This document shows positions 7,328 to 31,076 of a stretch of 34,381 nucleotides of DNA, one piece after another. Position 1 is the first letter of the stretch. Each line of letters begins with the position of its first letter. A program made the position numbers and the translations under genes. The notes under the pieces are model-generated. The model saw nothing but the letters and a program-made list of their open reading frames with translations, had not been told where the DNA came from and made no database searches. The stretch lies in the NCBI GenBank assembly GCA_024681275.1, contig JAILBD010000140.1, positions 1 through 34,381 of the forward strand, given 5' to 3'. This DNA comes from Erysipelotrichaceae bacterium (GTDB lineage: Bacteria > Bacillota_I > Bacilli_A > Erysipelotrichales > Erysipelotrichaceae).

Positions 7328-8967
7328 ATAAAGAGAAGATGAAACAATCATTACTGATCGGAGCTTTAACGAGCTCCTTTGGTATTTTTGTCTCCAAGCT
7401 TCTCGGATTGCTTTACTATTCACCGCTTTCTGCGATCGCAGGGGAGTCCAATATGGCTTTCTATTCGATCGTCTATACCTATTACGATCTGCTTCTGCAG
7501 ATCTCTCAGGCGGGCATACCTTTTGCGATCGCTTCCCTGGTCGCAAAGTACTATTCCAAACAGGATTACAAGACTGTCCTGCTGGTCAGAAAGATGGGCA
7601 CTTCCATCGTCATGGGACTTTGCGTTCTGACAGGTCTTTTCCTGACTCTGATGTCAGGACCTCTTGCCAGACAATCGCTAGGTATCTCCGCACCTGCCCA
7701 GGATATACAGAATCTGAGGATCATGTTCAATATCCTGACGATCGCTGTGATCCTCGTTCCGCTGCTTTCGGCTTTGAGGGGCTATATCCAGGGACTGAAA
7801 CGCCTTGATCTCTACGCTTCCTCTCAGGTTCTTGAACAGTTCGTCAGAGTCTTTTCCATCATTCTTTTTTCGTTTCTCTTTGTCAGGTTACTGCATTTTG
7901 ACAATATCTGGGCGATCTTTGCTGCGATCGCGGCGGCATCTTTAGGCGCTTTTGCAGCCTTCGCATATACGAAGCTGCTGAGCAGACGGGATGTCAGGAA
8001 TGTGGAAGTCCTTGCAAAAAAGCAGGAGAAAGAAGCTTTGATGAACGAAAAGGAGATCGTCAAAGAGATCCTTTTCCTGGGCATCCCTTATGTGATCATT
8101 TCCTTCCTTGGTACAGCCGGTCCTTTGATCAATACGACTTTCTTCATGGATTACATGACCAGAGTCAATGGACCGTCCGTCTACGAGAGCGCAAAGCTCT
8201 CCGCCGGCATCCTGCAGGCCAATGTTGCCAAGATCTCCAATATCCCTTCGGTTCTGGCTCTCGGTTTCGGTTCCGGCATGGTCCCTTACCTGAGTGAATC
8301 GCTGGAGTCTCACGATCACAGAAAGATCACCATGCAGATCAATCAGATCCTCGACACCGTCTTTTTCATCCTGATGCCGATGATCGTGATCTTCATCTTT
8401 TTTGCCAGAGATATCTACTTCATCATGTATGGAAATCACAATCTCGATCTGGGTACGACACTTTTTGCTGTGAGCAATATTCAGATCTTTTTGGGGACGG
8501 TCGCACCGATCTTCTCTTCGATCATGATGTCGCTGAAACTGCGCAAAGAGGCGATCATCACGCTGATCATCTCTTTCCTGGCAAAGCTGATCACGTTCTT
8601 TCCGCTGGTGAGATTTTTCGGTGCCTATGGCATGATCTATTCATCGGGAGTCTATTACCTGATCCAGATCGTCTGTTATTTCTACAGTTTGAAGAAGAAT
8701 TTCGGGATCAATATAAAAGGAACTTCACGCCGTTTCGTGAAGATCCTCATTTCTTCTTTATTGATGGTGATCCCGGCATTTGCCTTGCGTTCCCTCATTC
8801 CGTTTGGCTATGACTCCAGAGTCATCGACATCGGTATCATGGGCGTACTTGGTTTGATCATGCTGGGGATCTACTATGCTGTTTCAGTTTATTTCAGACT
8901 TCCGCAGAAGATATTCGGCATCAAAGATGTCTCAGTCAGAAGTCTGATCAGGGCATTGCGCCCTTAA
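7324..8967 (+). CDS. MurJ/YtgP-like MOP-family flippase
   Basis: A 547-residue integral membrane protein with about 14 hydrophobic segments, in the MOP (multidrug/oligosaccharidyl-lipid/polysaccharide) exporter superfamily. The start (LIGALTSSFGIFVSKLLGLL) and the segment LRGYIQGLKR are typical of the SpoVB/YtgP group; YtgP is the B. subtilis MurJ lipid II flippase of 544 residues. A role in moving lipid II across the membrane is likely, and murC occurs in the same region, but SpoVB-type polysaccharide transport cannot be excluded. Its last 36 bases overlap the 3' end of ispH on the opposite strand, and I see no clear terminator between the two convergent genes. Confidence 0.85.
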   Translation: MNKEKMKQSLLIGALTSSFGIFVSKLLGLLYYSPLSAIAGESNMAFYSIVYTYYDLLLQISQAGIPFAIASLVAKYYSKQDYKTVLLVRKMGTSIVMGLCVLTGLFLTLMSGPLARQSLGISAPAQDIQNLRIMFNILTIAVILVPLLSALRGYIQGLKRLDLYASSQVLEQFVRVFSIILFSFLFVRLLHFDNIWAIFAAIAAASLGAFAAFAYTKLLSRRDVRNVEVLAKKQEKEALMNEKEIVKEILFLGIPYVIISFLGTAGPLINTTFFMDYMTRVNGPSVYESAKLSAGILQANVAKISNIPSVLALGFGSGMVPYLSESLESHDHRKITMQINQILDTVFFILMPMIVIFIFFARDIYFIMYGNHNLDLGTTLFAVSNIQIFLGTVAPIFSSIMMSLKLRKEAIITLIISFLAKLITFFPLVRFFGAYGMIYSSGVYYLIQIVCYFYSLKKNFGINIKGTSRRFVKILISSLLMVIPAFALRSLIPFGYDSRVIDIGIMGVLGLIMLGIYYAVSVYFRLPQKIFGIKDVSVRSLIRALRP

Positions 8968-9813
8968 GAACGTGATCACTTCACTAATGAGATCCGGTGG
9001 CGTGGATGCTCCTGCCGTCACATAGACCTTTTCGGCATTTTGAAGATCTTCGATATCGATGTCTTTATAGTTCTGTATCAGCAGAACTTTTTTAATGCCG
9101 CTTTTGATGCCGATATCGACGAGTTTTCCGGTGTTGTTGGATTTCCTGTCGCCGACGACATAAAGCAGGTCGCAGTCCTGCAGTTTCGTGATGGCCAGCT
9201 GTCTGGATGAAGTGGCGTTGCAGATCTCTTCTTCGATGATGATCTGCGGATAAAGCTTTTTGGCGATCTCAAAAAGGTCTTTGAGTTCCAGATAGGACAT
9301 GGTCGTCTGATTGGTAAGGAAAAGTTTATCATTTTTCAGATCAAGATCTTTCAGATCCTTCTCACTGCTGACAAGGTGTATCCTGTCTGAAATGGAAAGG
9401 ACAGCTTCCGCTTCCGGATGTCTCTGCTTTCCGAAATAAATGATGTCGTATCCCTTTGCCAGGTATTCCTTGATGATGTTCTGCGTCTTGAGGACGTCAA
9501 CGCAGGAAGCATCGACGTATTTCAATCCTTTGGCCAGCGTTTTTTCTTTGATGCGGTCAGAAATGCCGTGTGCAGTGAAAATGACGATGCCCTGATCGAT
9601 CTGATCGAGCAGTTCATCCTTGCTTAAATGTGTGTCATCGAGGGTGATGATGCCCAACTGTGACAGTTCTTCCGTGACATAGGAGTTGTGCACCAGCATG
9701 CCCAGGATATATACGTTTTCATCCGGATGCTGGAGCTTTGTATCTTTGGCAAGTTTGATGGCGTTGATGACGCCTTTGCAATAGCCGCTTGGGACCACTT
9801 TTTTAATTTCCAT
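8932..9813 (-). CDS. ispH: 4-hydroxy-3-methylbut-2-enyl diphosphate reductase
   Basis: IspH (LytB) performs the last step of the non-mevalonate isoprenoid pathway, reducing HMBPP to IPP and DMAPP with a [4Fe-4S] cluster. The 293-residue protein carries the three cluster cysteines C12 (SGYCKGV), C104 (DASCVDV) and C198 (EEICNAT), plus the conserved VHN, TAHG, RHPE, TNQTT, SNNT and GASTP segments. The start at 9813 is set by family alignment: IspH proteins begin a few residues before the first cysteine. It has no ribosome-binding site and TATAAT sits seven bases upstream, so the message is predicted to be leaderless. ispH lies next to the cshB-like helicase, as in B. subtilis, but here the two genes are divergent. 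Confidence 0.95.
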   Translation of the reverse strand: MEIKKVVPSGYCKGVINAIKLAKDTKLQHPDENVYILGMLVHNSYVTEELSQLGIITLDDTHLSKDELLDQIDQGIVIFTAHGISDRIKEKTLAKGLKYVDASCVDVLKTQNIIKEYLAKGYDIIYFGKQRHPEAEAVLSISDRIHLVSSEKDLKDLDLKNDKLFLTNQTTMSYLELKDLFEIAKKLYPQIIIEEEICNATSSRQLAITKLQDCDLLYVVGDRKSNNTGKLVDIGIKSGIKKVLLIQNYKDIDIEDLQNAEKVYVTAGASTPPDLISEVITFLRAQCPDQTSD

Positions 9814-9819
9814 AAGTTC

Positions 9820-9825
9820 ATTATA
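9820..9825 (-). promoter_or_regulatory. -10 box of ispH, predicted leaderless start
   Basis: On the minus strand TATAAT occupies 9825 to 9820 and the ATG begins at 9813, leaving six bases between. This places the expected transcription start on or next to the start codon. The flank is ACTGTATAATG. I see no good -35 box and no Shine-Dalgarno site. Confidence 0.6.
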
Positions 9826-9830
9826 CAGTA

Positions 9831-9839
9831 TGCTAAAAT
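9831..9839 (+). promoter_or_regulatory. extended -10 of the cshB-like gene
   Basis: TGCTAAAAT matches the TGnTATAAT extended -10 pattern with one mismatch. The ATG at 9848 starts nine bases after its last T, so the leader would be zero to three bases. AGAGG at 9840-9844 would lie mainly upstream of the predicted transcript start. Confidence 0.5.
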
Positions 9840-9847
9840 AGAGGCGT

Positions 9848-11185
9848 ATGAATAAGAATTTAAAAGAAACGACAAAAAGATTCATCGAACTGAACAGTTT
9901 TGAGGAACTGACCGCTGTTCAGAATGAAGTCCTTCAATTTGCTTCGTCCCATAAAGATGTGATCGCTCTTTCCAAGACTGGAACAGGCAAGACGCACGCC
10001 TATCTGATCCCGATCATGGAAATGATCAATCCGGTATCCGATAAGACACAGGTGGTGATCTCTGTTCCGACCAGAGAACTCGCTTATCAGGTCTATCAGA
10101 ATGCTCTGCTGATGAAAGAGGTCCTTCCTGAATTACGGATCTCGCTTCTTTCGGGCGGTACGGATAAGAAGAAGTCCATTGCCAAAATGGAGAATGTGCC
10201 GCATATCGTCATCGGGACACCAGGACGTATCAGAGACCTCTTTGAATCCAATGCGTTGCGTGTGGATTTCGTCCAGATGTTCGTGATCGATGAAGCGGAC
10301 ATGACACTGGAGTTCGGTTTTCTTGAGGATATCGATATCGTGTTCTCTCACATGGTCAAGAATCCTCAGGTCCTGTGTTTTTCAGCTACTTTTCCTGAGG
10401 AACTCAATGCTTTCGTCAAAAAGTATCTGTCAAATCCGAAGATCATCCGGGTCGAAGATAAAAAGAGGGATCCGCACATCACACATGTCCTTGTCAACTG
10501 CAAGCATAAGGAATACAAAGAAGTCGTCTATGACATCCTGCCTGGTTTCAAGCCATATGTTTGCCTGATCTTTGCCAATTCCAAAGATGAAGCCGATGCG
10601 ACTTATGAATATCTGAGCGAGAAAGGGGTCAAAGCCCTGCTGATACATGGCGGTCTGGATTCAAGGACCCGTCAGAAGGCCATCAAGGATCTGCAGGCGA
10701 AAAAATACACCTATGTCATCGCTTCAGATGTCGCTTCAAGAGGTATCGATATCGACGGGATTAGCCATGTCATTTCAATGGGCCTGCCTAAGCAACTGCA
10801 GTTCTATATGCACAGGGCCGGCCGAACAGGCAGGAATGAAAAAGATGGGACCTGCTATCTTCTGTACAAGGAGACCGATATCCCACAGATCAAGACGCTG
10901 AATAAGAAGGGGATCAACTTCCTGGCCAAAGAATTCAAGAAGGGCGTCTGGAAGGAGGCAAGCAATCCGACTGACAAAAGAAGGATCAAGGCGGATGTGG
11001 AGGAGAAACAGATCGTAAAGACGCTCTATCGCAAGAATGAAAAAGTCAAACCGAACTATAAGAAGAAAAAGAATCGGGAAGTCGAGAAGATCAAGCGGAA
11101 AAAGAGAAGGGAAATGATCCAATCCAAGATCAAGGAAGAGCGGATCGAACGTTACAAGGAAAAACAGCGAAACAAGGCGCAATAG
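9848..11185 (+). CDS. cshB: DEAD-box RNA helicase, CshB-like
   Basis: A 445-residue ATP-dependent RNA helicase. Motifs in order: the Q-motif-like opening (FEELTAVQNEVL, 18-29), Walker A SKTGTGKT (42-49), PTRELA, GTPGR, DEAD (148-151), SAT, then the second RecA domain with FANSKDEAD, VASRGIDI and HRAGRTGR. The last 70 residues are a very basic Lys/Arg tail, usual in RNA-binding helicases of this size. In B. subtilis cshB (yqfR) lies two genes from ispH, and the adjacency here supports the CshB assignment over CshA. Roles in the family are mRNA turnover and cold adaptation. The gene ends in a hairpin terminator. Confidence 0.88.
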   Translation: MNKNLKETTKRFIELNSFEELTAVQNEVLQFASSHKDVIALSKTGTGKTHAYLIPIMEMINPVSDKTQVVISVPTRELAYQVYQNALLMKEVLPELRISLLSGGTDKKKSIAKMENVPHIVIGTPGRIRDLFESNALRVDFVQMFVIDEADMTLEFGFLEDIDIVFSHMVKNPQVLCFSATFPEELNAFVKKYLSNPKIIRVEDKKRDPHITHVLVNCKHKEYKEVVYDILPGFKPYVCLIFANSKDEADATYEYLSEKGVKALLIHGGLDSRTRQKAIKDLQAKKYTYVIASDVASRGIDIDGISHVISMGLPKQLQFYMHRAGRTGRNEKDGTCYLLYKETDIPQIKTLNKKGINFLAKEFKKGVWKEASNPTDKRRIKADVEEKQIVKTLYRKNEKVKPNYKKKKNREVEKIKRKKRREMIQSKIKEERIERYKEKQRNKAQ

Positions 11186-11198: not shown

Positions 11199-11204
11199 TA
11201 TAAT
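11199..11204 (+). promoter_or_regulatory. -10 box of the MATE gene, predicted leaderless start
   Basis: A perfect TATAAT in the context CTGTATAATACTGATTGTG. The only credible start codon, GTG at 11212, begins eight bases after the final T. There is no Shine-Dalgarno site between them and no obvious -35 box. Confidence 0.55.
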
Positions 11205-11211
11205 ACTGATT

Positions 11212-12561
11212 GTGAATATCGCAAAATTCATCGCCGAAAGTGATTTCTATAAAAGAGTGTTGAGAGTCGCACTGCCGTGTGCTCTTTCGCATCTGCTTCT
11301 TTCGTGCCGTTCGGTGATCTGTTCCATCATGGTCTCTTCCATCGGCATGGTCACGGCTGTAGGCAATGCCAACAATATCCTCTATCTTCACGATTATCTG
11401 CTTTGGGGCTTTGAAGCGGGTGCCGCTTTGTTCGGCGCTCAGTTCTTTGGCGCCAAAAAGTTTTCCAATATGGCTAAGACACAGGGAGTCTTTCTGCTGA
11501 TGTCGCTGCTGAATGCCTTTCTTTGGATCGGGATCGTTTTTACTGTAGGAGATAGGCTTCTTCTTTTCTATCTGAATGATCCAGAGTTGTTGCCGTATTC
11601 CCTGACGTATCTGAGATATGTGATGATCTCATTGATATTCTTATGCATCTCGATGTCTTTTCGCAGCATGTATCAGGCGATGCACAGGACGAGACTGACT
11701 TTCACGATATCCGGTCTCTATGTCCTGAGCAACATCATCTTCAATTATCTGTTCATCTTTGTGTTTCGGATCGGTGTTGCCGGTGCCGGTCTTTCAGTGC
11801 TCGTTTCTGAAATGCTGTGCTGCATCGGTGTCTTGATCTATGTGCATTATGACAAGCCGGATTTCTATCTTGGTTTAAAGCAGATGTTTTCTTTTGACTG
11901 GTCTTTCATCAAGCCGTTCATACTCAAGGTCGCTCCGATCGCTTTCAATGAGATGCTGTTTGGATTCGGCCAGTCGCTTTTCAACAAAGCGTACGGCATG
12001 CTGGGAAGCAGTTCGATGGAAGCGATCTACGTCTGTTCGGAGATCCTTTCGATGGCTTTGTTTGCAGTGTGGGGCTATGGCGAGGCTGTCGCCATCCTGG
12101 TCGGCACTCTTCTGGGAGAAAGCCGTATCGAACAGGCAAAGGAAGAATCGGCTTATCATCTGGGATTGTCTTTTGCTGTCGGCGTCGTGCTTTGGGTCTT
12201 CATGGTCGTCTTCAGTCCGGTATTCCTGAAGCTGTACCATATCTCTGACCCCGCAGTATACTCATCCTGCAGACAGATTCTCGCCGTCTATGGTTTCAAA
12301 GCCTTCCTGCGCGTTTTCACTTATGTGATGTTCTGCACACTGAAAGCGGGTGGCGATTCAAAGATCTACAACCTGCTGGATTCCGGCATCATGTATGCTG
12401 TCGGCATTCCGATCGCTTTTGCCGGTGTTTATCTTGGCGTTCATGATATCGTCTTTCTGGTCCTTCTGTGTCAGATCGAACAGGTGGTCAGATTCTTTCT
12501 GACTTTGAAACGGTATAATAGTTTCAAGTGGGCTAAAAATCTAACGGAGCTGGTGAACTGA
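11212..12561 (+). CDS. MATE family efflux transporter
   Basis: A 449-residue membrane protein with about 12 hydrophobic helices and the two-fold repeat of the MATE/MOP superfamily (LPCALSHLLLSCRSVICSIM at the first helix pair; GFEAGAALFGAQFFGAKK, the typical GxxxGxxxxxxQxxGA-like loop). Such transporters expel drugs or metabolites using a Na+ or H+ gradient; the substrate is not predictable. The frame is open back to a TTG at 11188, but that lies inside the terminator of the previous gene and upstream of the -10 box, so I start at GTG 11212. The next in-frame Met is too far inside. It is followed after one base by rimO. Confidence 0.85.
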   Translation: MNIAKFIAESDFYKRVLRVALPCALSHLLLSCRSVICSIMVSSIGMVTAVGNANNILYLHDYLLWGFEAGAALFGAQFFGAKKFSNMAKTQGVFLLMSLLNAFLWIGIVFTVGDRLLLFYLNDPELLPYSLTYLRYVMISLIFLCISMSFRSMYQAMHRTRLTFTISGLYVLSNIIFNYLFIFVFRIGVAGAGLSVLVSEMLCCIGVLIYVHYDKPDFYLGLKQMFSFDWSFIKPFILKVAPIAFNEMLFGFGQSLFNKAYGMLGSSSMEAIYVCSEILSMALFAVWGYGEAVAILVGTLLGESRIEQAKEESAYHLGLSFAVGVVLWVFMVVFSPVFLKLYHISDPAVYSSCRQILAVYGFKAFLRVFTYVMFCTLKAGGDSKIYNLLDSGIMYAVGIPIAFAGVYLGVHDIVFLVLLCQIEQVVRFFLTLKRYNSFKWAKNLTELVN

Positions 12562-23110: not shown

Positions 23111-23635
23111 TTAAGAACCTTTTTCGTTTTTCAGCTGAAGGAACAGTTTCAGGAATGTCATAGCAGCTGCCAGAGGCATTGCTAGTCCGAAGAAGATCTT
23201 TCCTTCACTGGATGTGATGTATGTGATCGTTATCGCGAAAAACAGCATGAACTGCCAGCTGATATTGCGCTGGATCGCTTTCTGGTCTTCATCGAAGACC
23301 TTGTTTTTGATTTCAGCTTTTAAGAAGGCTTTTTCGTAGATCGATGAAGAGAAAGACTTTGAAACAAAATAGGCTCCGACAAGAAGCCCTATCAGCAAGA
23401 TGACCGATAAGATGCTTATCCCCATCTTGTTGAAGATCAAAACAGACAAGAGGCTCAAGGCGATATAAAGGACTTCGCTGATCCCAAAAAACAGAAGGAT
23501 GTCTGCTTCCGAGATGTATCTTTTTTGCTGATGGTGGCATTTGGGACAGACGACTCTTCCTACAGAATAGTTCTCTATCGCTTTATTGCATTCAGCGCTG
23601 ATGTCTTCGTGACATTTTTCGCAATAGATCTTCAT
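23111..23635 (-). CDS. zinc-ribbon membrane protein, unknown function
   Basis: A 174-residue protein with an N-terminal zinc ribbon of two CxxC knuckles (C5-C8 and C30-C33) and then four hydrophobic helices at about 46-67, 72-92, 128-145 and 148-166. I do not recognise a family. The ribbon would face the cytoplasm. A monocistronic gene: it has its own TATAAT seven bases before the ATG, no Shine-Dalgarno site, and convergent or divergent neighbours. The start is firm because the first cysteine knuckle begins at residue 5. Confidence 0.7.
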   Translation of the reverse strand: MKIYCEKCHEDISAECNKAIENYSVGRVVCPKCHHQQKRYISEADILLFFGISEVLYIALSLLSVLIFNKMGISILSVILLIGLLVGAYFVSKSFSSSIYEKAFLKAEIKNKVFDEDQKAIQRNISWQFMLFFAITITYITSSEGKIFFGLAMPLAAAMTFLKLFLQLKNEKGS

Positions 23636-27967: not shown

Positions 27968-28687
27968 ATGGGAAGAGCGCATGAAGTTAGAGCTGCTGCA
28001 ATGGCTAAGACCGCAGCAATGAAATCGAAAGTTTATTCTAGATATGGCAAAGAGATCTATATCGCTGCCAAATCAGGCGTTCCTGACCCTGAAATGAACC
28101 TCACGTTAAGATCGAAGATCAAAGAAGCCAAAGCGAACCAGGTACCTGTCGATGTCATCAAGAGAGCGATCGAGAAGGCGAAAGGCGGTACAGGCGAGTC
28201 TTATGATTCGCTCCGTTATGAAGGTTTCGGACCTGGCAATGCAACGATCATCATTGATTGCCTGACAGATAACTCAAATCGCACTGTGGCAGCTATGAAC
28301 CAGTGTTTCAACAAGTCACGCTGCAAGATGGGTGTCAAAGGTTCTGTTTCGTTTACCTATGACAACCTTGGTGTCCTGTCCTTCAAATACGAAGATGAGG
28401 ATACGATGCTGGATACTTTGATCAACGCCGATGTCGATGTGACAGATCTGGAAGTTGAAGACGGTGAGATGACGGTCTATGTTGTACCGACTGATCTGCA
28501 CAAGGCTCAGGAAGCGATCGATGAACTGATCCCTGACTGTGAGTATTCAGTCTGCGCGATCAAGATGCTTCCGCAGGAATATGTCACTTTGACTGATGAA
28601 CACGACAAGGAACTCTGGCAGAGACTGCTGGATAACCTGGATGAAGTCGACGACGTTCAGGAAGTCTATCACAACGTACTGATGTAA
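27968..28687 (+). CDS. YebC/PmpR family protein, YeeN type
   Basis: A 239-residue YebC/PmpR (TACO1) family protein. Opening MGRAHEVRAAAMAKT and the segment YSRYGKEIYIAAKSGVPDPEMN identify the YeeN-like branch. Other landmarks are DVIKRAIEKAKGG, YEGFGPGNATIIIDCLTDN and GSVSFTYDNLGV. Members have been described as transcription regulators and, more recently, as factors that relieve ribosome stalling at difficult motifs. I start at ATG 27968, directly after GAGAGGTGA; an in-frame start five codons earlier is upstream of that site. A monocistronic unit with its own promoter and a hairpin terminator. Confidence 0.92.
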   Translation: MGRAHEVRAAAMAKTAAMKSKVYSRYGKEIYIAAKSGVPDPEMNLTLRSKIKEAKANQVPVDVIKRAIEKAKGGTGESYDSLRYEGFGPGNATIIIDCLTDNSNRTVAAMNQCFNKSRCKMGVKGSVSFTYDNLGVLSFKYEDEDTMLDTLINADVDVTDLEVEDGEMTVYVVPTDLHKAQEAIDELIPDCEYSVCAIKMLPQEYVTLTDEHDKELWQRLLDNLDEVDDVQEVYHNVLM

Positions 28688-28719
28688 AAGTGATCTGCTT
28701 GAATGCAGATCACTTTTTT
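28686..28719. terminator. bidirectional terminator between yebC-like gene and tmcAL
   Basis: AAAAGTGATCTGC (28686-28698) pairs with GCAGATCACTTTT (28705-28717), loop TTGAAT. The stop codons of both convergent genes lie inside the stem. Confidence 0.85.
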
Positions 28720-29801
28720 ATGACAGGGCCCTGAAGCTCTCTTTTGATATAGGCGTTCGGATCTTTTAGAAGCGAGGCGTAGAGAAGATTTGTCTTCCAC
28801 TCGATCTGCTTGTAGGGATCCGGTATGTTTTTGAACTGCGTCACGATATTGACGTCTTTTTTTATCCGTTTCAGCAGTTCGCGCCCTTTCTGATCGAAAC
28901 CAAGGACTCTGATGTGATCGGCTTCAGGCAGGGCTTCCACATCTTTCTTTCTGATGTGACAGGCAATATGCAGCAAGATACGCTGGATGCGGGAACGCGT
29001 ATATCTTCGGGATACGGATGCCTGTAGGAATCCTTCATAATCCGTATATCTGATCGCATTTTCTTTGAAGAGGTTTTCGATCCCTTCGCTGACCAGAAAG
29101 ATCTCTGATAATTCCTGACTGTCGATCGTAAGCAGAAGCTTGCGAAGATATGGCCATAGATCTTCTGTGAAGACAGGATCAGTCATACTCATCGGTGTTG
29201 CCATGGAGACATCTTTTCCTTCTTTGACCGCTTTTCTGATCGCCGTAGCTGAAGCGACCAGATCAAGATCGGTCGAAAGGTAATCGTTGGTCCTTTGAAT
29301 GCTGATTGGGTTGATGGAAGTATCTTTCAACGTTTTGAGATATGTCACTGCCAGCATGTCATTTGGATACAGGGACCCGCTCAAGAGCCCGTATGATCGG
29401 GGATAGGAGTTGCCATCGTGAAGCAGCTGACGCAGTCTGGTCACATCGACTTCGAGTTCCGCGTATTTTTTCAGTTCTTCCAGATTGTTGGTCTCGGAAC
29501 CGAAAACGAGTTCGTCGATGCCAAGCTTGTTCAGGATGGTGACAGCACTTTTTCCAAAGACATAGGCATTCTGCACGGTGCAGATATAAGGCAGTTCGAC
29601 GACCAGGTCTACACCATGGTCAAGGGCTGCCTGCGTTTTCTGGAATTTGTCGACGATGGAAAGGTCGCCGCGCTGATTGAAATTTCCGGACATGCAGGCA
29701 ATAAGCACGTCAGGATCGCTGATCTTCAGAGTTTCCCGGATATGATGCAGATGACCGTTGTGGAACGGATTGTATTCGACGATGATGCCTGCTGTTTTCA
29801 C
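28710..29801 (-). CDS. tmcAL: tRNA(Met) cytidine acetate ligase
   Basis: TmcAL (YlbM) makes N4-acetylcytidine at the wobble base of elongator tRNA-Met from acetate and ATP. The 363-residue protein has the nucleotidyltransferase-like motif EYNPFHNGH (9-17), SGNFNQRGD and VDLVVELPY. Family members start exactly at this motif, which fixes the start at GTG 29801. That start has no Shine-Dalgarno site; TATAAT ends seven bases upstream, so the message should be leaderless. It is about 50 residues shorter at the C-terminus than B. subtilis YlbM as I remember it. The gene is divergent from yceD and rpmF; in B. subtilis ylbM, ylbN and rpmF run in the same direction. Confidence 0.88.
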   Translation of the reverse strand: MKTAGIIVEYNPFHNGHLHHIRETLKISDPDVLIACMSGNFNQRGDLSIVDKFQKTQAALDHGVDLVVELPYICTVQNAYVFGKSAVTILNKLGIDELVFGSETNNLEELKKYAELEVDVTRLRQLLHDGNSYPRSYGLLSGSLYPNDMLAVTYLKTLKDTSINPISIQRTNDYLSTDLDLVASATAIRKAVKEGKDVSMATPMSMTDPVFTEDLWPYLRKLLLTIDSQELSEIFLVSEGIENLFKENAIRYTDYEGFLQASVSRRYTRSRIQRILLHIACHIRKKDVEALPEADHIRVLGFDQKGRELLKRIKKDVNIVTQFKNIPDPYKQIEWKTNLLYASLLKDPNAYIKRELQGPVIKK

Positions 29802-29807
29802 AAGAAT

Positions 29808-29817
29808 ATTATATAAT
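29808..29817. promoter_or_regulatory. palindromic bidirectional -10 element of tmcAL and yceD
   Basis: ATTATATAAT is its own reverse complement and contains a perfect TATAAT on each strand (29812-29817 forward, 29813-29808 reverse). The forward ATG at 29824 and the reverse GTG at 29801 each begin seven bases beyond the last T of their own -10 box. Neither side has a clear -35 or Shine-Dalgarno site. Confidence 0.75.
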
Positions 29818-29823
29818 AGCGGT

Positions 29824-30318
29824 ATGAAAATATATCTTAAAGATCTGGTCAATATGACTAGTGAAAGAGTCTATCCGGTCAATATCGACAGATATGAAGT
29901 CGAGGATAACGTCTTTCTACGCCGTCTTGAAGATGTGCGTGGACAGATCATCTTCTACTACGATGCTTCAGATAAACTGCATATCGATTATTCGGTGGAA
30001 GGGAAAATGATATGTCCGTGTGCCATTTCTCTGGAAGATGTCGAAGTTCCTTTCGAGGTCCACGAAGATGAACTCGTCGTGCATAAGCAGAGCGAAGATG
30101 GTTTTTTCCTCAATGAGAATACGGAACTGGAAGATCTGGTACTTTATATCATTTTGCCGGAAGTTCCGATAAAAGTTGTAAAAAAAGAAAAAATAGAGTA
30201 TTCTAGAGGGGACGGTTGGGTTTTTGTATCCGAAGAAGACTATGAGGCGTCCAAAAAAGACCAGATCGATCCGAGGTTACAGAAGCTTAAAGAGTACAGA
30301 TTCGAGGAGGATGATTAA
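29824..30318 (+). CDS. yceD: DUF177 / YceD family protein
   Basis: A 164-residue DUF177 protein (YceD; YlbN in B. subtilis), found next to rpmF across bacteria and linked with 23S rRNA or ribosome accumulation. The conserved core is visible as [16 protein letters not shown] (about residues 61-76) and the C-terminal [12 protein letters not shown]. The ATG at 29824 is the only start giving the full conserved N-terminus; it lacks a ribosome-binding site and follows TATAAT by six bases, so a leaderless message is predicted. rpmF follows two bases after the stop. Confidence 0.9.
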
Positions 30319-30320
30319 CA

Positions 30321-30470
30321 ATGGCTGTTCAGCAGAGAAGAAACTCAAAGACACGTAAAGCCAAGAGAAGAACCCATTATAAATTGACACCGCCGACATT
30401 GGTCAAGTGCCCATCTTGCGGTGAATATAAAATGGCTCATCGTGCATGCCCTAATTGCGGCGCAAAATAG
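30321..30470 (+). CDS. rpmF: 50S ribosomal protein L32
   Basis: A 49-residue bL32: [17 protein letters not shown] at the start, then a zinc ribbon made by CPSC and CPNC. All four cysteines are present, so this is the zinc-binding (C+) form. GAGGAGG lies ten bases before the ATG. It is co-transcribed with yceD and ends before a clear terminator. Confidence 0.97.
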
Positions 30471-30542
30471 TTTTGTAAAGAAAGAAGAGGGATCTTCTTT
30501 TTTTCATGCGATTTTTTAGTGTCCGGATCGCGAAATTCAAGT

Positions 30543-30574
30543 AAAAGTGCAGGAAATTCCTGCACTTTTTCTTT
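30543..30574 (+). terminator. rho-independent terminator of yceD-rpmF
   Basis: AAAAGTGCAGG (30543-30553) pairs with CCTGCACTTTT (30559-30569), loop AAATT, followed by a T-rich run. Confidence 0.88.
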
Positions 30575-30600
30575 ACTTTCAGCCCATAAAATGAAATAAT
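30572..30600 (+). promoter_or_regulatory. candidate promoter of the dcw cluster
   Basis: TTTACT (30572-30577) and AATAAT (30595-30600) with a 17-base spacer; expected start near 30607, inside the MraZ repeat array. The -35 box overlaps the tail of the upstream terminator. TATATT at 30616-30621 is a possible alternative -10. Confidence 0.45.
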
Positions 30601-30601
30601 A

Positions 30602-30636
30602 GTGGTAGAAAGTGGTATATTGTGGGTAAAAGTGGG
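30602..30636 (+). promoter_or_regulatory. MraZ operator: four GTGG direct repeats
   Basis: GTGG recurs at 30602, 30612, 30622 and 30632, exactly every 10 bases; two copies read AAAGTGG or AAGTGG. This is the expected MraZ binding array in front of mraZ and suggests autorepression of the division cluster. The last repeat ends two bases before the ATG region and also takes the place of a ribosome-binding site. Confidence 0.85.
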
Positions 30637-30638
30637 AA

Positions 30639-31076
30639 ATGTTCATAGGTGAATACCAACACAATCTGGATGCCAAAGGCAGGATCATCATTCCCAGCAG
30701 GTTCAGAGATGAACTCAATTCTGCGTTTATCCTTACCAGAGGCCTTGATGGCTGTCTGACGATCTACTCCCTGAAACAGTGGGACAAATTGTTTGAGGAA
30801 GTCAACAAACTGCCCACGACTAAGAAGGCGGCCCGTCAGTACATCAGGATGCTCACAAGTACCGCAACCGAATGCACGCTCGATAATCAGGGACGTATCC
30901 AGATACCGGCGTTTCTTTCCAAACCTGTCAATATCACGAAAGAATGTGTCGTAATCGGCGCGAACGATCATATCGAGATCTGGGATAAGGCGGCTTGGGA
31001 AGCTTATTACGAGACAGCTTCTGAAAGCTTTGAAGAAGTTGCCGAAAATCTCAGTGAACTTCTGAACAATGACTAA
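30639..31076 (+). CDS. mraZ: transcriptional regulator MraZ
   Basis: MraZ (145 residues) is the first gene of the division and cell-wall cluster and represses it by binding GTGG repeats. Two SpoVT/AbrB-like halves are seen: GEYQHNLDAKGRIIIPSRFR (3-22) and ATECTLDNQGRIQIPAFL (about 78-95). Four operator repeats precede it. Its stop overlaps the rsmH start by eight bases. Confidence 0.95.
   Translation: MFIGEYQHNLDAKGRIIIPSRFRDELNSAFILTRGLDGCLTIYSLKQWDKLFEEVNKLPTTKKAARQYIRMLTSTATECTLDNQGRIQIPAFLSKPVNITKECVVIGANDHIEIWDKAAWEAYYETASESFEEVAENLSELLNND

Follow-up and report, generated by a model that had tools for sequence, protein, structure and literature searches.

The tmcAL/yceD junction of an Erysipelotrichaceae bacterium raises the question of how two divergent genes are transcribed and translated when their start codons are separated by only 22 bp. 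The window, by which we mean the whole analyzed stretch of 34,381 nucleotides (GenBank assembly GCA_024681275.1, contig JAILBD010000140.1), carries on its reverse strand a gene that we take from its family to be tmcAL, and on its forward strand yceD, followed by rpmF. The initial annotation had proposed that a symmetric bidirectional promoter drives both genes and that both are leaderless. Conservation in relatives, a peak of TATAAT six bases before start codons and recurrence of the arrangement at other gene pairs support this proposal at the level of sequence comparison. Very probably, the palindrome at the center of the junction is a single minimal promoter that is read both ways, with each RNA starting at its start codon.

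Palindrome and start codons at the tmcAL/yceD junction

The junction is organized around a 10-bp palindrome, ATTATATAAT, of which the whole window contains a single copy (Table 1). As claimed, and exact to the base, this palindrome gives a TATAAT on each strand. On the forward strand, six bases (N6) and then the yceD ATG (29824-29826) follow the hexamer, and on the reverse strand N6 and the tmcAL GTG (29801-29799) follow it, so that the coordinates also confirm the identical placement of the two start codons. In the window the symmetry extends to a perfect 12-bp palindrome, TATTATATAATA (29807-29818). The key -10 positions of the two strands overlap reciprocally, which is the symmetric -10 criterion of bidirectional promoters, and the start sites predicted from position lie 23 bp apart.

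Both start codons had been described as fixed by their families. For TmcAL this is borne out by alignment: the E of EYNPFHNGH is residue 9, as claimed, and 14 of 17 chosen homologues aligned with the window protein begin at the same residue. Among the others, the start of P0069 is later, and N-terminal extensions, LYNNLM and LYNKLM, are found in P0012 and P0015, respectively. Judged from the protein sequence alone, these extensions match the translation of TATAAT-N6-ATG and look like translated promoter, a resemblance that annotation pipelines should take as a warning. The corresponding argument for YceD is weak, as its Pfam domain match does not begin until residue 55. The yceD start is fixed better by orthologues than by the domain: of the 30 near loci (defined below) with an identified yceD, 21 have no alternative in-frame start in the preceding 60 nt. 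The window yceD itself has upstream in-frame start candidates at -54, -42 and -39. The rpmF gene is presumably on the same transcript as yceD. Between rpmF and mraZ, a 12-pair stem at 30543-30569, scored on both strands, is a possible two-way terminator.

Table 1. Positions of the junction elements and of further predicted leaderless genes in the window
Feature	Position	Strand	Basis or remark
tmcAL (HIGH nucleotidyl transferase family), GTG start, predicted leaderless	28710..29801	-	Pfam PF05636 (HIGH_NTase1), E 3.4e-98; alignment
yceD (DUF177), ATG start, predicted leaderless	29824..30318	+	Pfam PF02620, E 2.1e-9
rpmF (ribosomal protein L32)	30321..30470	+	Pfam PF01783; two bases past yceD
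28-bp module: reverse tmcAL GTG, N6, ATTATATAAT, N6, yceD ATG	29799..29826	.	sequence and relatives
Palindromic -10 element ATTATATAAT, common to both genes	29808..29817	.	fixed in 25 aligned copies (selected for the pattern)
-10 hexamer TATAAT for yceD	29812..29817	+	preceding TATTA gives T at -5 and T at -3
-10 hexamer TATAAT for tmcAL	29808..29813	-	TATA in common with + strand hexamer
Six-base spacer to yceD start	29818..29823	+	variable: 18 sequences in 25 copies
Six-base spacer to tmcAL start	29802..29807	-	variable: 14 sequences in 25 copies
ispH/lytB, TATAAT-N6-ATG, predicted leaderless	8932..9813	-	-10 at 9825-9820; Pfam
MATE family gene, TATAAT-N7-GTG, predicted leaderless	11212..12561	+	-10 at 11199-11204; Pfam
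Gene without Pfam match, TATAAT-N6-ATG, predicted leaderless	23111..23635	-	-10 at 23647-23642

The best match to TTGACA at 15-19 bp was no better than in shuffled sequence, both for 25 tmcAL/yceD copies and for 52 predicted leaderless promoters. A generic promoter scan of 28600-30700 gave 3 sites against 3.4 in shuffles; one of them, TTAAGA-16-TATTAT on the reverse strand in the tmcAL direction, has a second hexamer that overlaps the palindrome. In the TnTG extended -10, with T at -5, T at -3 and G at -2, the -35 is dispensable, and the T at -5 and -3 are part of the Gram-positive form of this element. Of the 52 predicted leaderless promoters, 75% have T at -5 and 71% have T at -3 before the TATAAT, but only 27% have G at -2, and the full TG is present in 12. 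The palindrome itself gives T at -3 on each strand and has T at -2. On the two strands, 72% and 80% of the copies carry T at -5, which pairs with the opposite direction's first spacer base. With these T positions, a single short palindrome could be enough for both directions even where coding sequence takes up the -35 sites.

Based on these features and the comparisons below, the 28-bp interval is likely a bidirectional promoter of the extended -10 kind that lacks a -35 and yields two leaderless transcripts, a reading to which we assign a probability of roughly 0.87. RNA polymerase with the housekeeping sigma factor would read TATTATATAATA, as found in the window, in either orientation without a -35. 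Transcription would start about seven bases past each TATAAT, which is the first base of each start codon, and tmcAL and yceD, the latter with rpmF, would be made as leaderless mRNAs. Since the two -10 hexamers have four base pairs in common, polymerase would be expected to bind in one orientation at a time and so exclude a second polymerase.

Conservation and recurrence of the module

Among 272 genomes of the family searched for TmcAL, 247 had a match. The near set of 31 loci consists of the best 30 of this search (L081, L084-L112; 54-77% identity) and L082, from Solobacterium sp. UBA1789 (G002; 56% TmcAL identity), while the distant set consists of 20 family loci (L083, L173-L191). The full pattern CAY-N6-ATTATATAAT-N6-RTG lies between tmcAL and yceD at 24 of the 31 near loci, where TmcAL identity falls as low as 54%, and is absent at all 20 distant loci. 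Conservation of palindrome and spacing in relatives, whose absence the initial annotation had named beforehand as refuting, was found in the near relatives and not farther out in the family. Because the 25 aligned copies (window included) were selected for the pattern, their fixed palindrome is given by construction; the informative evidence is the rate of 24 in 31 together with the variable spacers (Table 1). Spacer identity to the consensus is 0.49 and 0.69 in these copies, versus 0.77 and 0.83 for the flanking codons. GTG starts are frequent among the 25 copies, with 11 for tmcAL and 7 for yceD, a point against the leaderless reading given that most sampled leaderless starts use ATG (48 of 52).

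The other near loci depart from the pattern in several ways. In L082 the palindrome is retained, at N7 from tmcAL and N6 from yceD. The palindrome is lost in L100, with TATAAT-N6 for tmcAL and yceD at N9, and in L107, where tmcAL has TATAAT-N6 and yceD was not found. L102 has TAAAAT-N6 for tmcAL and yceD at N9, and L104 has TAGAAT-N8 for tmcAL and N6 for yceD. L105 lacks the palindrome and its tmcAL start is unreadable by motif. Separate -10s, each a TATAAT-N6, precede the two genes in L101, which has no palindrome, and the same arrangement was seen by eye in L192, from the genome of L105 (G109); the spacing is thus kept apart from the palindrome in L101 and G109. The tmcAL start was likewise unreadable by motif in L175, L180, L185, L186, L188, L189 and L192, the last being read by eye. 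At the 14 distant loci where it was readable, seven have TATAAT at N6/N7, three have a hexamer with one mismatch there and four have neither; yceD is at N10-N11 in five of the 20 distant loci. By eye, L177 and L183 have TATAAT-N6 for tmcAL with TTTACA 17 bp upstream, this TTTACA standing one base from the yceD -10 on the opposite strand and the yceD -10 at N11. This arrangement may be an older layout. One genome (G001) carries two tmcAL/yceD junctions, L081 and L169, on different contigs, and this MAG may be a mixture.

A perfect palindrome that is fixed in 25 copies, even if these were selected for it, could also be the operator of a dimeric regulator, with the promoters elsewhere, for example inside the opposing genes, and with leadered mRNAs. 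The failure to find a -35 in either direction fits this view as well. However, the exact six-base distance to both start codons would be unexpected of an operator, and in the same genomes TATAAT-N6-start is found at many single genes that have no palindrome. Moreover, L100, L101, L107 and, as judged by eye, L192 have lost the palindrome and yet have TATAAT-N6 before tmcAL. An SD-like 4-mer occurs before tmcAL in 0 of the 25 copies, and the named gene pairs listed below have no evident common pathway. An operator palindrome would be conserved independently of a fixed -10 position, whereas here the N6 spacing accompanies the palindrome. We consider an operator very improbable.

The specificity of the bidirectional module was examined in a group of 36 Erysipelotrichaceae genomes, comprising G001, G002 and the block G103-G136, which was delimited before the pattern search. 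Four members (G117, G123, G128 and G131) are without a TmcAL match, and the named members L001 and L002 are MAGs. The N6/N6 pattern occurs in 30 of the 36 genomes at 53 sites, counts that relatedness inflates because sites in related genomes are not independent events. Outside the group it occurs in one of 236 other family genomes (G071, one site), giving 31 of 272 family genomes and 54 sites overall. Read backward, the same pattern gave zero sites in all 272 family genomes. An N9/N9 control gave one site in the 36 group genomes, without an ORF on one side, and an N6/N7 pattern gave 16 sites in 13 of the 36. A class-wide sample of 395 genomes contains seven with the pattern, namely G001, G106 and five of the 359 that are not in the family sample.

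These last five sites matter for the possibility that a strong AT-rich -10 on one strand became self-complementary by accident, which is made easier by the TATA within TATAAT, as half of the symmetry comes cheaply. Among them, only L209 has ORFs on both sides, and L208, L210, L211 and L212 have at most 63 codons on at least one side. Such an accident does not account for 53 sites in 36 group genomes, with ORFs on both sides, at several gene pairs and with free spacers around a fixed palindrome, and it is contradicted by conservation within the group. It has hardly any probability, and the comparison indicates that the module is not a product of chance.

Flanking genes were examined at 20 of the 54 N6/N6 sites, mostly those away from tmcAL. 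At 18 of the 20, an ORF of at least 91 codons lies on both sides (that of L160 being cut after 186 codons); at L153 and L169, one side reaches the contig end after 4 and 19 codons. The 20 sites represent ten gene pairs, nine inside the group and one in G071. Besides tmcAL/yceD, they are uracil-DNA glycosylase with a FolC-like Mur ligase (6 loci), PfkB with a MurE-like Mur ligase (3 loci), GH25/GNAT (3 loci), HD/TraB (2 loci), TruB/PP-loop, IspD/MsrA, peptidase M19 with a 109-aa protein, a pair of unfamiliar proteins at L167 and, in G071, acylphosphatase with a 229-aa protein. Pfam was run on one example each of the eight pairs other than tmcAL/yceD and L167, the remaining sites being grouped by eye from their N-termini, and FolC, MurE and ung are names given in this analysis. 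The module recurs at unrelated gene pairs, and no common pathway is evident in the named ones. Of the 16 N6/N7 sites, 14 were examined: nine are ung/folC, one is PfkB/Mur ligase, one is guanylate kinase/NFACT, L204 is a further pair of 297 and 90 codons, and L205 has no ORF on one side; L082, with tmcAL/yceD, is one of the remaining two. Near position 1394 of L203, also N6/N7, a TmcAL-like start comes after the palindrome, and a short run of unknown bases separates it from a ung start. This locus looks misassembled, as if the assembler had joined two loci at their common module.

Leaderless-like starts across the group

The initial annotation had proposed a count of TATAAT at different distances from start codons, and in the group exact TATAAT does peak at six, before single genes too. 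Counted at each gap of 0-30 before the starts of long ORFs, it occurs at gap 6 in 4 cases in the window (33 ORFs), 10 in G113 (157), 20 in G106 (168) and 8 in G119 (142), versus 2, 3, 5 and 4 at the next highest gap. The controls, with 2 in G249 (146 ORFs), 0 in G017 (68), 3 in Bacillales (629) and 5 in Bacilli MAGs (250), have no gap-6 peak; the last two represent 29 Bacillales and 17 Bacilli MAG loci, 46 of at least 80, with the other 34 left out. Looser hexamers weaken the peak, to 17, 37 and 15 in G113, G106 and G119 versus 11, 28 and 13 at the next gap, and in the window gap 6 and another gap both give 6.

Over whole genomes, TATAAT-N6-ATG and TATAAT-N9-ATG stand at 2821:981 in the 36 group genomes (median 3.12, range 1.38-6.33), 457:159 in seven intermediate genomes and 694:546 in 13 distant genomes (range 0.86-2.33), with overlap of the per-genome ratios between group and distant genomes. 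These 56 genomes were chosen from the 272, and G224 was set with the intermediates after the counts had been seen; when it is moved to the distant set, the totals become 407:146 and 744:559. A backward-read control for the N6 counts was set aside because its composition and frame differ, and the frame-matched N9 was used.

Nine divergent pairs in which both starts are leaderless-like (at most one mismatch, N6 or N7, at least 90 codons) occur in 594 kb of the group, with 23 to 93 bp from one start to the other; 1143 kb of controls contain none. Leaderless-like orthologues also recur by eye, from their N-termini: RsmE, NusB and an Spx-like protein in G113, G106 and G119, and Ffh and RimM in G113 and G119. 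A Shine-Dalgarno (SD) 5-mer is found at 1 of 52 predicted leaderless starts, 48 of which are ATG, versus 213 of 500 ORFs at some start candidate (four samples); before yceD, an SD-like 4-mer occurs in 6 of 25 copies. Both marks of leaderless genes, a -10 at a fixed short distance and no SD sequence, are found here.

The same distances bear on a bidirectional promoter whose start sites are displaced and whose mRNAs would have leaders a few bases long, through use of TATTAT-N11, for instance, or variable start choice. TATTAT-N11 lies inside the palindrome in most copies, N7 copies exist (16 sites), the yceD of some relatives is at N9-N11, and the available text of one report states that the distance from -10 to start site varies in bacteria (Warman 2026, PMC12825309). 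However, the spacing peaks at six, with some at seven, also for genes without a palindrome, and TATAAT is closer to the consensus than TATTAT. Additionally, start sites favor purines, according to the accessible part of another report (Middlemiss 2023, PMC10268837), and RTG begins with one. Displaced starts are improbable.

The view that leaderless mRNAs are rare in Bacillota, which had accompanied the proposal, calls for a correction. The window has three more TATAAT-N6/-N7 starts (Table 1), and a survey found leaderless genes in 56 of 209 Firmicutes genomes, at 4.2% of genes on average and concentrated in Lactobacillales and Mycoplasma, as far as its available text shows (Zheng 2011, PMC3160421). 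Judged by their -10 distances, leaderless starts look common in this organism. A separate survey, again in its accessible part, gives the class Erysipelotrichia an SD value of 74, and SD sequences are accordingly in use in these bacteria. Two further sites were noted in the window. At 9813-9848, a second divergent pair consists of ispH (reverse) and a DEAD-box helicase gene (ATG 9848) with starts 35 bp apart, the helicase gene having TAAAAT-N8 and an AGAGG word. The gene at 1018-1680, without a Pfam match and lipoprotein-like by eye, has TAGAAT-N6-GTG and is perhaps leaderless.

Relation to known promoters and significance

Bidirectional promoters were reportedly first described by Warman in 2021. 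That divergent promoters with a symmetric -10 in common are known, as the initial annotation stated, agrees with the available text of two later reports, in which start sites lie 7-25 bp apart, with 18 commonest and 10 and 23 common (Warman 2026, PMC12825309; Middlemiss 2023, PMC10268837). The module resembles these promoters in its common symmetric -10 and in the expected binding of one polymerase at a time, and its predicted start distance of 23 bp falls in a known class (PMC12825309). In the accessible parts of both reports, the transcripts are not described as leaderless, whereas the start codons of the module stand at the predicted start sites (PMC12825309, PMC10268837). The module also differs in that its symmetry is perfect over 10-12 bp and its spacing is conserved between species.

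A TA-like signal some 10 bp upstream of the start codon, as found here, is a mark of leaderless genes in the available text of Zheng 2011 (PMC3160421) and of a Deinococcus-Thermus study (PMC12340547), which also describe TAtAAT in low-GC genomes, several of which show a TG peak that is described as taking the place of the -35 region. The string Erysipelo is absent from the accessible text of Zheng 2011 (PMC3160421), and the present case concerns another Bacillota group and two leaderless genes at one element. In Mycobacterium tuberculosis, where closely juxtaposed divergent promoters are called common, the divergent neighbors prpD and Rv1129c were both mapped as leaderless, but the available text reports no palindromic -10 in common and no recurring module (Cortes 2013, PMC3898074). 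The overlapping divergent promoters of lysG and lysE in the same species are a partial likeness, with one leaderless transcript; as far as the available text goes, only the second lysE promoter is leaderless and a regulator binds the intergenic region, which has an inverted repeat (PMC5648196). According to partly accessible work on mycobacteria, ATG or GTG at the 5' end is enough for leaderless translation, so that the GTG start of tmcAL is no obstacle in principle. Neither the recurring symmetric leaderless module nor leaderless genes in the group were found in the open-licence literature. Symmetric -10 promoters and leaderless genes are known separately; their fusion into a recurring module appears to be the new part.

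The initial annotation had further suggested that polymerase exclusion would tie tmcAL to yceD. In E. coli, according to the accessible text, none of the five bidirectional promoters tested was strong enough for polymerase competition at basal level, and competition was seen once one side was activated. Exclusion would therefore be physically expected at the module, and it may or may not serve regulation. A stronger view, on which the module is a selected, repeatedly arising control unit that formed separately at nine or ten gene pairs, with polymerase competition tying the genes and leaderless expression standard, is tentative, and we lean against it.

In conclusion, the junction would be close to the smallest divergent arrangement, with 22 bp between start codons and no leader, SD sequence or recognizable -35. 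Should the start sites be confirmed, leaderless expression would be common in a Bacillota group beyond those named in Zheng 2011. The arrangement also makes two questions testable: what an SD-using Firmicute ribosome needs at a bare 5' AUG or GUG, and what polymerase competition costs or serves at a symmetric promoter, the latter because many species carry natural replicates of the module with free spacers.
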